This document shows positions 40,204 through 45,836 of a DNA stretch of 64,000 nt, piece by piece. Below the pieces are notes generated by a model. The model was not told the DNA's origin. It worked only from the letters and a program-made list of their open reading frames with translations, and made no database searches. Position numbers and translations under genes: made by a program. How positions within the stretch are numbered: position 1 is the first letter of the stretch; each line of letters starts with the position of its first letter. This stretch comes from Psychroflexus lacisalsi (lineage in GTDB: Bacteria > Bacteroidota > Bacteroidia > Flavobacteriales > Flavobacteriaceae), in contig NZ_JAIQYZ010000001.1 of assembly GCF_020164495.1 (NCBI RefSeq), positions 558,001-622,000 of the forward strand, written 5' to 3'.

Positions 40204-41718
40204 ATGAAGAACTACACTAATAAATACTTTGACATTTCAAAACCAGTTTTTATTCCTTCCGCTCTTATAACTGTCTTTTTTGTAACCTTCACTATAATCT
40301 TCAACGAACAGGCAGAAGCTGGATTTTCAAGCTTTAGGTCTTATATGTCTGAAAATTTTGGATGGTTTATCAATATAGCTATCAATTATTTTTTGTTTTT
40401 CGTCATTTTTATAGCCTTCAGCCGATTTGGAAAAATAAGGATTGGTGGGAAAAAGGCGCGTCCTGATTTTAACAAATTTTCATGGATTGCCATGTTGTTC
40501 TCTGCAGGAATGGGTATCGGCCTGGTTTATTTTAGTGTAGCAGAACCCATGTTGCATTTTAGCAATCCTATTGAAGCCGGTCTTTCTGGTGTAGAAAAAT
40601 CTAAATTAGCGATGAAGCATACGTTTTTCCATTATGGATTTCATGTATGGGGAATATATACATTGCTTGGCATTGCTTTAGCCTATTTCACATTCAACAA
40701 AAAAGCGCCTTTATCGATCAAATCAACCTTGAAACCACTTTTTGGAAACTACATGAATTCTTTTGTCGGTCACGCTATAGACGTTGTTGCCGTTTTAGCG
40801 ACTTTATTTGGTCTGGCAACCACACTTGGCTTTGGGGCAGTTCAGTTTACAACGGGTATTTCTGAATTGTCAGGATTATCAAATTCTGTGAATCTTCAGA
40901 TTCTATCTATTATTGGAATCACATTAATAGCAACCGTGTCGGTACTTTCAGGACTAAATAAAGGTCTAAAATATTTGAGCAATTTCAATATGATCATCGC
41001 TGGAATTGTATTTCTTTTTGTTTTAATTGTAGGCTCTACTGTTCTCTTGTTTGATGGATTTGTTGAAAGTTTAGGTTTATACCTTACTGATTTTTTTGAA
41101 ATGAGTACCTATAGAAATCAATATGGGGAAGAGGGTAAATGGTTTAAGTCCTGGTCGATGTTTTACTGGGTATGGTGGATCTCGTGGTCGCCATTTGTAG
41201 GAACTTTTATTGCTAGAATTTCCAAAGGAAGAACACTACAAGACATTGCTATTTATGGCCTTTTGGTGCCTTCCTTATTTTCCATGCTTTGGATGTCTGT
41301 ATTAGGTGGAACCGCATCGGATATGCAGCTAAATTCTGTCATAGATTTAGCTCAGGTTGTGGCCGATGACAGCTCTATGGGGTTGTTTAAAATGCTGGAA
41401 AATCTGCCGTATTATAAAATTACTGCAATTTTAAGCATCATTCTGGTAGGAACCTTTTTCATCACTTCGTCTGATAGTGGTTCTTTGGTGGTTGATTTTA
41501 TGACTTCCGGAGGGAAGCTAGACGCTCCAAAAGGTCAGAAGGTGTTTTGGGCATTTATGGAAGGTTCTATTGCTATTGCTCTTCTGATTGGTGGTGGTTT
41601 GTCTGCACTTCAATCTGCATCCATTTCAACCGGTTTTCCGTTTGCTATTATTTTGATTTTTGTAAGTATATCTCTACTTAAGAGTCTTAAACAAGACGAT
41701 CAGTTAAAGAAAAAATAA
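40204..41718 (+). CDS. BCCT-family betaine/choline/carnitine-type transporter
   Basis: The 504-residue protein has 12 predicted membrane helices and the BCCT signatures GMGIGLVYFSVAEP (about residues 101-114) and YWVWWISWSPFVGTFIARIS (about 322-341). Such carriers import compatible solutes, coupled to sodium or protons; the substrate is probably glycine betaine or a similar quaternary amine. The C-terminal cytoplasmic tail is short, so osmosensing of the BetP type is unlikely. It stands alone between two long AT-rich gaps. Confidence 0.93.
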   Translation: MKNYTNKYFDISKPVFIPSALITVFFVTFTIIFNEQAEAGFSSFRSYMSENFGWFINIAINYFLFFVIFIAFSRFGKIRIGGKKARPDFNKFSWIAMLFSAGMGIGLVYFSVAEPMLHFSNPIEAGLSGVEKSKLAMKHTFFHYGFHVWGIYTLLGIALAYFTFNKKAPLSIKSTLKPLFGNYMNSFVGHAIDVVAVLATLFGLATTLGFGAVQFTTGISELSGLSNSVNLQILSIIGITLIATVSVLSGLNKGLKYLSNFNMIIAGIVFLFVLIVGSTVLLFDGFVESLGLYLTDFFEMSTYRNQYGEEGKWFKSWSMFYWVWWISWSPFVGTFIARISKGRTLQDIAIYGLLVPSLFSMLWMSVLGGTASDMQLNSVIDLAQVVADDSSMGLFKMLENLPYYKITAILSIILVGTFFITSSDSGSLVVDFMTSGGKLDAPKGQKVFWAFMEGSIAIALLIGGGLSALQSASISTGFPFAIILIFVSISLLKSLKQDDQLKKK

Positions 41719-42376: not shown

Positions 42377-42457
42377 ATGGAGCCACACATTAGATCACCT
42401 GGAGATTATTATTTGAACAGACGCATTTTATCTAAAAATTTAAATCAAAAACATTAA
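42377..42457 (+). CDS. Short leader ORF 1 upstream of LruC lipoprotein 1
   Basis: An ATG-initiated frame of 26 codons begins MEPHIRSPGDYY and ends with TAA four bases before the lipoprotein ATG. The peptide shares the IRSP motif and a downstream Tyr with the leader ORF of the second copy. Three of the four IRSP codons differ only at the third position between the copies (ATT/ATA, AGA/AGG, CCT/CCA), which argues for selection on the peptide. It may be a translated leader that controls the downstream gene; this is inference. Confidence 0.5.
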   Translation: MEPHIRSPGDYYLNRRILSKNLNQKH

Positions 42458-42461
42458 AATC

Positions 42462-43979
42462 ATGAAAAATTTATTAAAACCTTTCAGTTTACTTTTTGCT
42501 TGCATTGCAATGCTTTTTATGTATTCCTGTCAAGATGAAGAATCCACATCGCAAGAAGAACAAGGTGGTGTTGAATTCCTATTTGATGGTGACAGAGTAA
42601 GTAATGCTAAGTCTGGAATTGCAAATGCTAAAAACGATGCAGAATCCTGTGACATGGCTTTAGCTTCTTATGCTATTATTGAGATGAGCGGAGAAACTTA
42701 TGAGATCGATTTAAAGGCATGGGGCGAAAGCTATAAGACAGATCTTATTGAGCTCGGTCCTGGCACTTATCAAGTGACTAATGTGCAGCTTTTTGATGCC
42801 GATGACCATCCACTTTACGCTACTCCTATGGCAGAAAGTGAATTTGGTCCGTTTGTAAGTCAGGCACTACCTTTCGACGTAACTGTTGAAAATTACAGGA
42901 AAATTGAATATGACCTGGAAGTGTTATGTATCGAAGAATTTACCCCACCACAATTTGGATTTGTTTTCTGGGATGTAACAATCAAAGAAGTCAAAAATCT
43001 ATGTGTATTTGCTAACTTCTGTGAGCCAGATGCTGGACATGCAGTAGCCTCGCTAGAAGCGTTTATCTATCCAAATGAAGAATCTACATCAGATGAAGAT
43101 TTGATCTGGACTGGTTCTGCAGATGGTGATTATGATAGTGAAAATCCAGATAATGAACTACTTTGTTTGAAATTCCCTTATGATCCTAGTATTCCTACTG
43201 AAGATCAATCATTCTACATCGAGCTATTTGTAAATGGTGTATTATTCCAAGGAACTATGCCGCTAGACAGAGTGGATATGATCAATGCAGAAGATGGATA
43301 TCTTCACTTAAATGAAAATTGTGATGGAGATTTTGACATCCTTAGCAACAGTTTCAACATTGCATGGGAGGACCTCAATGGTGATGGAGGGACTAATGAT
43401 TGTGATTACAATGATTTTATTGTAAAGACAACTACTTCTACAGATATAACTACAGGTGACTTAATCTTTGAATTTGAGCCAATAGCTAGAGGTGGAGGTT
43501 ATGATCATGCTTTCAAATTTTGGTTACCAGGTACTGGATACAGCGTAACTGGTGCAAGTTTAGTAGATGATTCATCTGGCAACACAATGATTGAGGTTTA
43601 TCCAGATACACATCAAGCATTTTCCTCAACTAATGATTTTGTAAATACCAAGTGTAATGGTGCAACAGGAACTGGTAATATAGTAACAGTTACTGTTCAA
43701 AACCCACCATCAAATTTCACATACTACTTACTAAATCCTTTCGATGCAAATCTAAATGTGACTGGTGGCGGAAGTACTTATGATCTAACACTAGGGAACC
43801 TTTTCACTTCATCTACGTTTATAAAAGATGGACAGGAAATGAAAAATGGTTTGATTACCACCGGAGACTGGGAATGGGTTGTAGATGGTGTGGACATAAG
43901 AACTGTGTATGGGCCTAATTTTGACAGTAATTTCACTCCAATCAGTAACCTTGGAAGTTTGTGGATGAATTGTCCTTAG
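42462..43979 (+). CDS. LruC-domain surface lipoprotein, copy 1
   Basis: The 505-residue protein has a lipobox MYSC (Cys23) followed by QDEE, an acidic stretch like the surface-export signals known for Bacteroidetes lipoproteins. Residues about 55-285 form a Cys-containing domain shared with copy 2. The C-terminal part has WEDLNGDGGTNDCDYNDFIV followed by FEPIARGGGYDHAFKFWLPG, the pattern of LruC/DUF4842 domains, with an Asp/Asn-rich, possibly calcium-binding, loop. The function is unknown. It is preceded by a leader ORF and followed by hairpins. Confidence 0.8.
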   Translation: MKNLLKPFSLLFACIAMLFMYSCQDEESTSQEEQGGVEFLFDGDRVSNAKSGIANAKNDAESCDMALASYAIIEMSGETYEIDLKAWGESYKTDLIELGPGTYQVTNVQLFDADDHPLYATPMAESEFGPFVSQALPFDVTVENYRKIEYDLEVLCIEEFTPPQFGFVFWDVTIKEVKNLCVFANFCEPDAGHAVASLEAFIYPNEESTSDEDLIWTGSADGDYDSENPDNELLCLKFPYDPSIPTEDQSFYIELFVNGVLFQGTMPLDRVDMINAEDGYLHLNENCDGDFDILSNSFNIAWEDLNGDGGTNDCDYNDFIVKTTTSTDITTGDLIFEFEPIARGGGYDHAFKFWLPGTGYSVTGASLVDDSSGNTMIEVYPDTHQAFSSTNDFVNTKCNGATGTGNIVTVTVQNPPSNFTYYLLNPFDANLNVTGGGSTYDLTLGNLFTSSTFIKDGQEMKNGLITTGDWEWVVDGVDIRTVYGPNFDSNFTPISNLGSLWMNCP

Positions 43980-44039
43980 TAGCAACATGGCTTAAAACTT
44001 TAGTAAAGGCTACTAAAATAGCCAATGCTATGTAATATT

Positions 44040-44065
44040 AAAGGCTGCTTTTGCAGCCTTTTTTT
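44040..44065 (+). terminator. Terminator after LruC lipoprotein 1
   Basis: AAAGGCTGC (44040-44048) pairs with GCAGCCTTT (44053-44061) around TTTT and is followed by a T run. A second imperfect hairpin (GGCTA with TAGCC, around 44008-44023) precedes it. The core GGCTGC / GCAGCC is reused in the terminator of copy 2. Confidence 0.88.
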
Positions 44066-44109
44066 AAATCAAAGTATTCACGTTTATCATAAATAAAAAA
44101 TCAATTGTT

Positions 44110-44202
44110 ATGAATTTACAAATAAGGTCACCAGTTAGAAATTATTCAATCAAACATTTCAAAACAGAAAAATTTAAAACTCAAAATTTAATAAAATCAT
44201 GA
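44110..44202 (+). CDS. Short leader ORF 2 upstream of LruC lipoprotein 2
   Basis: A 30-codon frame starts MNLQIRSPVRNY and its TGA overlaps the ATG of the lipoprotein gene (ATGA at 44199-44202), a classical translational coupling arrangement. The IRSP motif with Tyr four residues later matches leader ORF 1, although the rest of the two peptides has diverged. The peptide is basic. It is likely translated, but no direct evidence exists in the sequence beyond conservation and overlap. Confidence 0.55.
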   Translation: MNLQIRSPVRNYSIKHFKTEKFKTQNLIKS

Positions 44203-45737
44203 ATAATTTATCAAAAAAATTTAATTTACTTATTGCTTGCTTTGCATTGGTATTCTTATATTCTTGTCAAAATGAAGAAGGGGATAGCGTTTCAGAAGAA
44301 GCTAGTGGTGTTGAATTTGTATTATCTGGTCATAGGGTTGCTGACGCTAAGTCTGATGCTAAATCTAGTGATTTAGCTAAAGATGAAGAGGCTTGCGACA
44401 TGGCATTAGCTTCCTACGCTGTGTTGACTATGGGAGGAATAGATTATACTATAGACATGAAAACTTGGGGAAATAGCTATAAAACAGATCTTATAGAACT
44501 AGATCCCGGAACTTATCAAGTGACTAGTTTTGTTCTTTTCAATGGCAACGATGACGAATTATTTGCTACGCCTAAAACAGGTAGTGAGTTTGGTCCTTTT
44601 GTAAGTCAGTCCTTACCATTTGATGTTGTAGTTGAAAACTATAGAAAAATCGAATACGATATCGAAGTACTTTGTGTCGAAGAATTTACCCCACCACAAT
44701 TTGGATTTGTTTTCTGGGATGTTACAATCAAAGAAGTCAAAAATCTATGTGTATTTGCAAACTTCTGTGAGCCAGACGCTGGACATGAGGTCGCTACATT
44801 AGAAGCATTTATCTATCCTAATGAAGAGTCAACTTCCGAAGAAGATCTAATCTGGAGCGGTTCTGCTGACGGTGATTATGATAGTGATAATCCAGATAAT
44901 GAACTACTTTGCTTAAAACTCCCTTACGATCCAAGTATTCCTACAGAAGATCAGTCTTATTACATTGAGTTGTTTGTAAATGGTATATTATTCGAAGGTA
45001 CTATGCCACTAGACAGAGTTGACATGATCAATGCAGAAGATGGATATCTACACTTAAACGAAAACTGTGATGGAGATTTCAATATTTTTAGCAATACTTA
45101 CAATGTAGCATGGGAAGCTCTAAGAGGTGATGATAACCAAAATGACGCTGACTACAATGATTTAATTGTACAAACTAAATCATTTACAGATATTAATACA
45201 GGAGAATTAAACTTCGTCTTTGAGCCGTTAGCGCGTAGTGCAGGATCGGAACTTGGGTTCAAATTTTGGTTGCCTGGAACTGGTTATGTAATTTCAGGAG
45301 ATGCCACCAGCGTTGATACTTCATCTGGTGATACAGAGATAGAGGTCTATCCAAACACAAGACAGGCAGCATTTGGTTCCAATAGTGGTTTTGTAAATGC
45401 TAGATGTAACGATGTAACGGGAAATGGTATTGTGAAAACTGTAAAGGTTGATATTACAAATGCTCCAGACTTTACATATTTTCTCCTAAATCCTTATGAT
45501 GCAAATCTAGGTGTAGATGGTAATGACGGTATATTTGATCTTACCATGGGTAACATGTTCACACCTTCAACTTTCACAAAAGATGGACAAGAAATGAAAA
45601 ATGGTTTAATTACTCCCAAGGATTGGAAATGGGTTGTAGATCGTGTTGATATTAGGACCGTTTATGGACCTAGCTTTGATACTAATTTTGTTCCTGTAAG
45701 CAATTTGGGAAGTTTGTATGAAAGTTGTGGTCTGTAA
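44199..45737 (+). CDS. LruC-domain surface lipoprotein, copy 2
   Basis: The 512-residue paralogue of the preceding lipoprotein has a lipobox LYSC (Cys23) followed by QNEE. The middle region (EEFTPPQFGFVFWDVTIKEV, NLCVFANFCEPDAGH) is identical in copy 1, whereas the N-terminal linker and the C-terminal LruC/DUF4842 part (ADYNDLIV, GFKFWLPGTGY) have diverged moderately. Both end in DVDIRTVYGP-like sequence (here DIRTVYGPSFDTNF). The LruC motif here has lost one Cys present in copy 1 (ADYND against CDYND). Surface display is inferred. Confidence 0.8.
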   Translation: MNNLSKKFNLLIACFALVFLYSCQNEEGDSVSEEASGVEFVLSGHRVADAKSDAKSSDLAKDEEACDMALASYAVLTMGGIDYTIDMKTWGNSYKTDLIELDPGTYQVTSFVLFNGNDDELFATPKTGSEFGPFVSQSLPFDVVVENYRKIEYDIEVLCVEEFTPPQFGFVFWDVTIKEVKNLCVFANFCEPDAGHEVATLEAFIYPNEESTSEEDLIWSGSADGDYDSDNPDNELLCLKLPYDPSIPTEDQSYYIELFVNGILFEGTMPLDRVDMINAEDGYLHLNENCDGDFNIFSNTYNVAWEALRGDDNQNDADYNDLIVQTKSFTDINTGELNFVFEPLARSAGSELGFKFWLPGTGYVISGDATSVDTSSGDTEIEVYPNTRQAAFGSNSGFVNARCNDVTGNGIVKTVKVDITNAPDFTYFLLNPYDANLGVDGNDGIFDLTMGNMFTPSTFTKDGQEMKNGLITPKDWKWVVDRVDIRTVYGPSFDTNFVPVSNLGSLYESCGL

Positions 45738-45765: not shown

Positions 45766-45836
45766 TTAGCATAGATTTTAGTAAAATCTCTGCTAAGTAA
45801 TAACAAAGGCTGCTCTCTAGAGCAGCCTTCTTTTTT
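45766..45836 (+). terminator. Hairpin and terminator after LruC lipoprotein 2
   Basis: A first hairpin pairs TTAGC and AGATTTT (45766-45779) with AAAATCT and GCTAA (45783-45796). It is followed by a strong stem, GGCTGCTCT (45808-45816) with AGAGCAGCC (45819-45827), and a T tract. Copy 1 has the same two-hairpin layout, so the 3' region was duplicated with the gene. Confidence 0.85.

Follow-up and report, generated by a model that had tools for sequence, protein, structure and literature searches.

Each of two tandem lipoprotein genes in the window (the whole 64,000-nucleotide stretch of Psychroflexus lacisalsi DNA that was analyzed) is preceded by a short leader open reading frame that starts Met-x3-Ile-Arg-Ser-Pro, and comparison with relatives gives good support to selection on the leader peptide, essentially on Met1, residues 5 to 8, and their spacing. 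Leader 1 (MEPHIRSPGDYYLNRRILSKNLNQKH, positions 42377..42457, plus strand as for all features below) has 26 codons, read from the sequence in a frame that its relatives share, and ends four bases before the ATG of lipoprotein gene 1 (42462..43979, 505 amino acids). Leader 2 (MNLQIRSPVRNYSIKHFKTEKFKTQNLIKS, 44110..44202) has 30 codons and overlaps, as ATGA, the ATG at 44199 of lipoprotein gene 2 (44199..45737, 512 amino acids). The two genes are tandem paralogs, whose products carry, as judged by eye, the lipoboxes MYSC (copy 1, with a signal peptide) and LYSC (copy 2). Core codons 5 to 8, where besides the ATG the peptide-level selection is seen, read ATT AGA TCA CCT in leader 1 (42389..42400) and ATA AGG TCA CCA in leader 2 (44122..44133), so that three of the four third positions differ while the residues are identical. 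A sequence-only reading of this DNA had already reported the two frames with their coordinates and lengths, the common start, the silent differences, and the placement of both stops, all of which we confirmed in the window; an M-x3-IR[S/A]P start was also found in the same frame in 10 of 15 close homologs, more than chance would give. That reading had also noted a tyrosine at a fixed distance. Tyr12 is indeed common to both window copies, but it is absent as a conserved residue from the relatives.

The 15 close homologs come from eight genomes, seven of the 27 Psychroflexus genomes searched plus Marivirga aurantiaca, with three each in P. lacisalsi (G000) and G001, two each in G008, G024, and Marivirga, and one each in G005, G021, and G025. 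Named loci of the family are from Psychroflexus longus, P. montanilacus, P. sediminis, P. gondwanensis, P. tropicus, and M. aurantiaca, and some, not all, of the neighboring genes are common to the species compared. The M-x3-IR[S/A]P leader was intact in 10 of these 15, with at least one intact copy in each of the eight genomes; in tandem pairs, it was intact before the first gene in four of four cases and before the second in two of four. Its ATG is located 81 to 96 bases upstream of the lipoprotein ATG in the intact rows, which begin MEPHIRSPGDYY.., MNLQIRSPVRNY.., MEPHIRSPENYQ.., MDLQIRSPVRNC.., MKPSIRSPVKL (complete as given), MTARIRSPVKKT.., MKKLIRAPSNKN.., MKPFIRSPVRLS.., and METHIRSPTNKS.. 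in Psychroflexus and MKPSIRSPDFNV.. in Marivirga. The other five leaders have decayed: that of the third copy of the P. lacisalsi genome is broken (MK-stop-SIRSPK), one has a one-base deletion (MEPHIKSLRIIS), one reads MDLQIT-stop, one lacks the ATG and reads IRAT, and that of Marivirga copy 2 reads MYLAIDSLHFENKK. Since four of these five leader-less copies keep an intact lipoprotein frame, the leader is not needed by every copy. The leader was found before none of the 45 distinct distant homologs checked (40 genes from 42 loci, among them one distant Marivirga paralog, plus five from the genus Marivirga), and a V-K-A-P match at one distant locus (L098) arose by chance, with the start codon missing at the proper place. 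The suggestion that homologous upstream regions would carry an IRSP frame therefore held for the close homologs, in a family narrower than had been proposed.

The earlier claim that selection acts on the peptide and not just on the DNA is well supported by the substitution counts. By parsimony over the ten intact rows, the core codons underwent 2, 0, and 12 changes at codon positions 1, 2, and 3, against 24, 25, and 25 in eight flanking codons of the same rows (Fisher p 0.0004, a value that assumes independent changes). Per site, first and second positions changed 0.25 times in the core and 3.06 times in the flanks, while third positions changed 3.0 and 3.1 times, so that in the core changes at positions 1 and 2 are far rarer than at position 3. 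The parsimony tree was that of the 15 proteins, with open forks resolved by hand, and the ten rows include two pairs of close orthologs (four rows). Because these rows, from few lineages, were picked for carrying the motif, which alone lowers the changes at positions 1 and 2, we added the comparison with the flank rate as well as a count over all 15 rows, decayed ones included, which gave 5, 6, and 22 core changes by codon position. Pairwise differences among the ten intact rows amounted to 18, 0, and 102 in codons 5 to 8, 85, 65, and 69 in codons 2 to 4, and 125, 144, and 151 in codons 9 to 13. At first positions, the core shows just two changes, a silent one from AGA to CGA and one from TCA to GCA that turns Ser into Ala; AGA/AGG/CGA and TCA/TCC/TCT/TCG interchange synonymously. 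All but one of the 15 rows retain the leader ATG itself, though flanking sites changed ca. three times each. Core third positions that drift at the flank rate, next to nearly frozen first and second positions, argue for selection on the peptide. We infer that the leader is translated, and the rest of it, including the Tyr and the stop position, appears to be unconstrained.

The same counts bear on three other explanations. A DNA or RNA element (an operator, part of a promoter, or an RNA-protein site) that reads as IRSP by accident would account for the near-constant distance to the gene and for the commonest DNA form of the core, ATTAGATCACC, but hardly for third positions that change at the flank rate beside near-frozen first and second ones, for an ATG always in frame four codons before the Ile codon, or for the lack of a stable fold at the three loci folded and of an Rfam family at cut-off in the window region scanned. 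We consider it quite unlikely, and it was largely rejected on the codon pattern and the absence of a fold or Rfam match. Functionless shared ancestry, which the tandem paralogy of the window copies might suggest, is scarcely credible, with the flanks near saturation and the core kept in seven Psychroflexus genomes and Marivirga, and is refuted by the core and flank counts. An antisense gene was rejected too, the antisense frames across the core having just 2 to 58 codons in the ten rows.

The end of the leader is far from fixed. Its stop lies at -4, +4, -19, +4, -51, -14, -29, or -34 relative to the lipoprotein ATG and is absent in two of the ten rows, P. tropicus (G005) and Marivirga copy 1, in which the leader continues in frame into the lipoprotein; length ranges accordingly from 11 codons up to no stop at all. 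With a stop anywhere from -51 to +4, or missing, the conserved function can lie neither in a set termination point nor in the ATGA overlap, and no evidence speaks for a role of the leader stop or the overlap in the mechanism. This also weighs on a generic upstream frame of irrelevant sequence, working by termination-reinitiation or translational coupling. The window itself would suit such a frame, with one stop four bases before the lipoprotein ATG and the other overlapping it, and a survey describes leader genes near the main gene as common, with a peak at 11 to 14 bp in Bacteroidetes (PMC4833913). The IRSP leaders resemble these reinitiation leader genes in being short frames near a main gene, also in Bacteroidetes (PMC4833913), but the preferred short stop-to-start distance that defines them is not kept. 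Termination-reinitiation was rejected because the stop position varies between relatives and is absent in two of ten; it would, moreover, leave the peptide-level selection on four codons unexplained, and we regard it as quite improbable. The two rows without a stop, in frame with the lipoprotein, are what speaks for the leader as the N terminus of a longer lipoprotein form, produced directly or by frameshifting. This seems very unlikely, given an intervening stop or another frame in eight of ten rows and lipoproteins with their own start and lipobox, and two in-frame rows in ten would be about what chance predicts.

Searches outside the known loci showed no further leaders among the matches that could be placed. 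A scan of the 27 Psychroflexus genomes for M-x3-IR[S/A]P at the DNA level, with a pattern loose enough to let AGY (Ser) stand for the Arg codon, yielded 47 matches compared with 25 for a reversed-pattern control. Nine of these are intact lipoprotein leaders, one is a pseudogene leader, and 37 are others, 27 of them with Ser at the Arg place or an earlier stop codon; the ten remaining matches, with a true Arg and free of stops, all lie in or antisense to long frames, and none is intergenic. Spacings of M-x2 and M-x4 matched 19 and 18 times, against 11 and 15 times for the controls, which came to 36 loci; each of the 34 that were placed (all except L141 and L167) runs across an open frame of 100 codons or more. 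In 397 family and 395 phylum genomes, the pattern M[K/E]P-x-IR[S/A]P, to which just five of the ten known leaders conform, occurred at six extra places, against 1 and 3 in the controls; each of the six overlaps another gene on one or the other strand, and none is intergenic. As far as searched, the leader would thus be tied to this lipoprotein family alone, and a putative control of the lipoprotein gene by the leader would fit such an exclusive association. A free short peptide acting in trans, as a signal or through a protein partner that recognizes the N-terminal IRSP, would also be selected as a peptide, and the motif does accompany the lipoprotein even into Marivirga. We nevertheless judge it unlikely: the remainder is unconserved, with lengths from 11 codons up to fusion with the lipoprotein frame, the two genomes without a leader stop would release no separate peptide, inspection by eye shows no hydrophobic signal stretch, and no copy remote from the gene was found in the genus, family, and phylum searches.

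The explanation that we prefer, with evenly divided confidence, is a translated leader acting in cis, whose nascent chain slows or arrests the ribosome at or just after codon 8. Initiating at the leader ATG, which precedes that of the lipoprotein by 81 to 96 bases, ribosomes would synthesize fMet-x-x-x-Ile-Arg-Ser/Ala-Pro; near the peptidyl transferase center, I5-R6-S7/A7-P8 would then slow or arrest elongation, alone or together with a ligand. As only residues 5 to 8 are kept while the length varies, the working part would be the first eight codons, and a conserved chain of eight residues ending in I-R-[S/A]-P would have the layout of a start-proximal nascent-chain arrest. The ribosome protects mRNA to about 17 bases downstream, according to one study (PMC6238534), so that one parked with codon 8 in the P site would cover the leader to about base 40 and leave the lipoprotein start accessible. 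Its effect might come from shielding of the mRNA 5' end, or from setting the usage of the downstream start or the continuation of transcription. Residue 9 is variable (V in five intact rows, S, T, G, E, and D once each), for which reason one would not expect a strong intrinsic arrest like those of RAPP or XP(P) motifs, and a weaker pause, or one that requires a ligand, appears more likely. Against the arrest reading stands that residue 9 is never the Pro, Cys, or stop of intrinsic motifs, and against a ligand that the lipoprotein family suggests none.

Several described leaders share parts of this arrangement. ErmDL and ErmBL are also short frames placed right before the gene, with the decisive residues in the first 11 codons; ErmDL stalling with telithromycin strictly depends on Arg6-Leu7-Arg8, a motif dispensable with erythromycin (PMC8298421), and for ErmBL it is the amino acids that matter, not the codons (PMC8274638). 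Arg6-Leu7-Arg8 of ErmDL, as given there, lies at the depth of the IRSP core, and both have Arg at residue 6 (PMC8298421), so that the Erm-type stall geometry would fit a leader with its core at codons 5 to 8. Unlike the Erm leaders, and comparing sequences only, the IRSP leader has the motif IR[S/A]P, a lipoprotein downstream instead of a ribosome methylase, no attenuator hairpins at the three loci folded, and no known ligand. The two NSP/NAP arrest peptides are likewise from Bacteroidota and have Ser/Ala-Pro at the arrest end; the residues that mutation shows to matter include Asn at -3 and Pro at -1 (and Lys at -5), the Ser/Ala not being among those described, and the peptides carry an N-terminal localization signal, lie before secA/secDF, and stall with a stop codon in the A site (PMC10987492). 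The IRSP leader differs from them in having Arg for Asn, S/A-P at codons 7 and 8 followed by sense codons, and a lipoprotein downstream.

With the RAPP-like peptides (ApdA, ApdP, and ApcA) and SecM, the leader shares an Arg-[Ala/Ser]-Pro core, present in all ten intact rows. RxPP motifs (x = Gly, Ala, Ser, or Pro) form part of arrest sequences, and Ser partly replaces Ala in ApdA/ApdP (PMC12992588); a RAPP-like motif alone is insufficient in one paper, while a minimal RxPP is sufficient in another (PMC12992588, PMC10951233), and SP(P) and AP(P) belong to the strong XP(P) pauses (PMC6238534). RSPG in window copy 1 parallels RAPG of ApcA, Gly at residue 9 occurring in copy 1 only, whereas nine of the ten IRSP rows lack the following Pro/Gly of the RAPP-like peptides, whose motif, like that of SecM, comes C-terminally after a long nascent chain. 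ToiL, the uORF of E. coli topAI, also is a regulatory uORF before a non-resistance gene, for which translational repression of topAI and Rho-dependent termination are shown (PMC12121999).

Weak structure and the lack of any Rfam family at cut-off make an erm-like hairpin switch unlikely. Folding of the 5' region at three of the ten loci gave z values of +2.7, -0.1, and +2.0 against shuffles, and in these three neither a stable fold nor an erm-type hairpin hiding the downstream start was found; between window positions 41700 and 46100, no Rfam family reached its cut-off, one weak match, CAESAR (22.3 bits versus 45), overlapping leader 1. Protection of the mRNA end, or an altered flow of transcription or translation, would be more plausible than a hairpin switch. 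Control of mRNA stability via stalling at ermAL1 is one model for the erm leaders (PMC8274638), and for ermB mRNA stability correlates with expression independently of stalling (PMC5118997).

In kind, the IRSP leader is a regulatory leader peptide, and what appears new are its motif, the position of this at codons 5 to 8, the lipoprotein gene as target, and the absence of any RNA switch that could be seen. The conserved leaders of the arrest type known so far belong mainly to genes for antibiotic resistance, amino acids, and protein export. We found no description of an IRSP-type leader before lipoproteins among the open-access papers listed, which is weak evidence of absence. A wider reading is that M-x3-Ile-Arg-Ser/Ala-Pro represents, in Bacteroidota, a new and very short ribosome-arrest module, sensing a small molecule or the state of translation and setting the level of an outer-membrane lipoprotein without an RNA switch; this we put forward tentatively and on the whole regard as doubtful. 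Codon 8 would be the sensing point, where a held ribosome could, for example, cap the mRNA at its 5' end. If true, the module would move between orders along with the gene it controls, nascent-chain control would extend to a new class of genes (Bacteroidota lipoproteins) with a working part only eight residues deep, and such control would be at work in 5' regions where an RNA switch is not found.

The protein tree of the 15 close homologs (rooted by midpoint only) places the two copies of M. aurantiaca, which we take to be a bacterium of another order than Psychroflexus, together within a branch of three Psychroflexus genomes (100/99 support), and of nine other genomes of the genus Marivirga, four lacked any match, and the matches in the other five were weak (E 6.6e-4 to 1.9e-15). 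Nested copies together with none or weak matches in congeners make horizontal transfer the likely origin of the M. aurantiaca tandem pair (L085, L119, L120), and the tree placement also points to a separate duplication in Marivirga. Window copy 2 has 94% protein identity to the P. longus homolog. In a genome from another genus (G033), ten lipoprotein matches were detected, several of them in tandem (L008, L017, L022, L025, L028, L030), and the leader was absent from all the copies examined there.

As for transcription signals in the window, an intrinsic-terminator-like hairpin followed by a T run (44040..44068, stem 44040-44061) lies between lipoprotein gene 1 and leader 2, only ca. 40 bases from the leader 2 ATG (window 44040-44110), and expression of gene 2 may need read-through or a promoter within the hairpin region. 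A sigma-70 promoter scan, with a model that does not cover the promoters of this phylum, gave 23 sites versus 20.0 expected. The terminator scan also detected a hairpin 3' of lipoprotein gene 2 (45806..45829), which sits between converging genes and is terminator-like on both strands (45805-45830), the T tract being weaker on the minus strand.

The lipoproteins had been described as LruC, an assignment that stood only in part. Both copies are below the cut-off of TIGR04456 (LruC, NCBIfam; 24.7 and 17.8 bits versus 36), copy 1 alone is barely above the threshold of Pfam DUF4842 (22.5 versus 22), and copy 2 is barely above that of Pfam DUF4458 (23.6 versus 22.4), so that they would be LruC/DUF4842 proteins only loosely. 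No PDB relatives were detected by sequence and no relatives on viral contigs, and an AlphaFold model from an eight-row alignment was poor (mean pLDDT 49). Copy 1 and its nearest relative (L014/L015 alignment) are near-identical to about residue 300 and clearly more divergent thereafter, a pattern suggestive of recombination or of a domain swap in the C-terminal half. One class of paralogs (L016, L021, and L020) has the first ca. 295 residues in common and a different C-terminal domain, with intact members of 429 and 431 amino acids; all three have decayed leaders, and the class adjoins a conserved set of four genes, presumably of the ExbB/ExbD/TonB type. The third lipoprotein copy of the P. 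lacisalsi genome (G000:C51:102677-103672; L020, 1501-2496) has a TAA inside the signal peptide, and a stop at codon 3 interrupts its leader too, so that leader and gene look as if they had decayed together.
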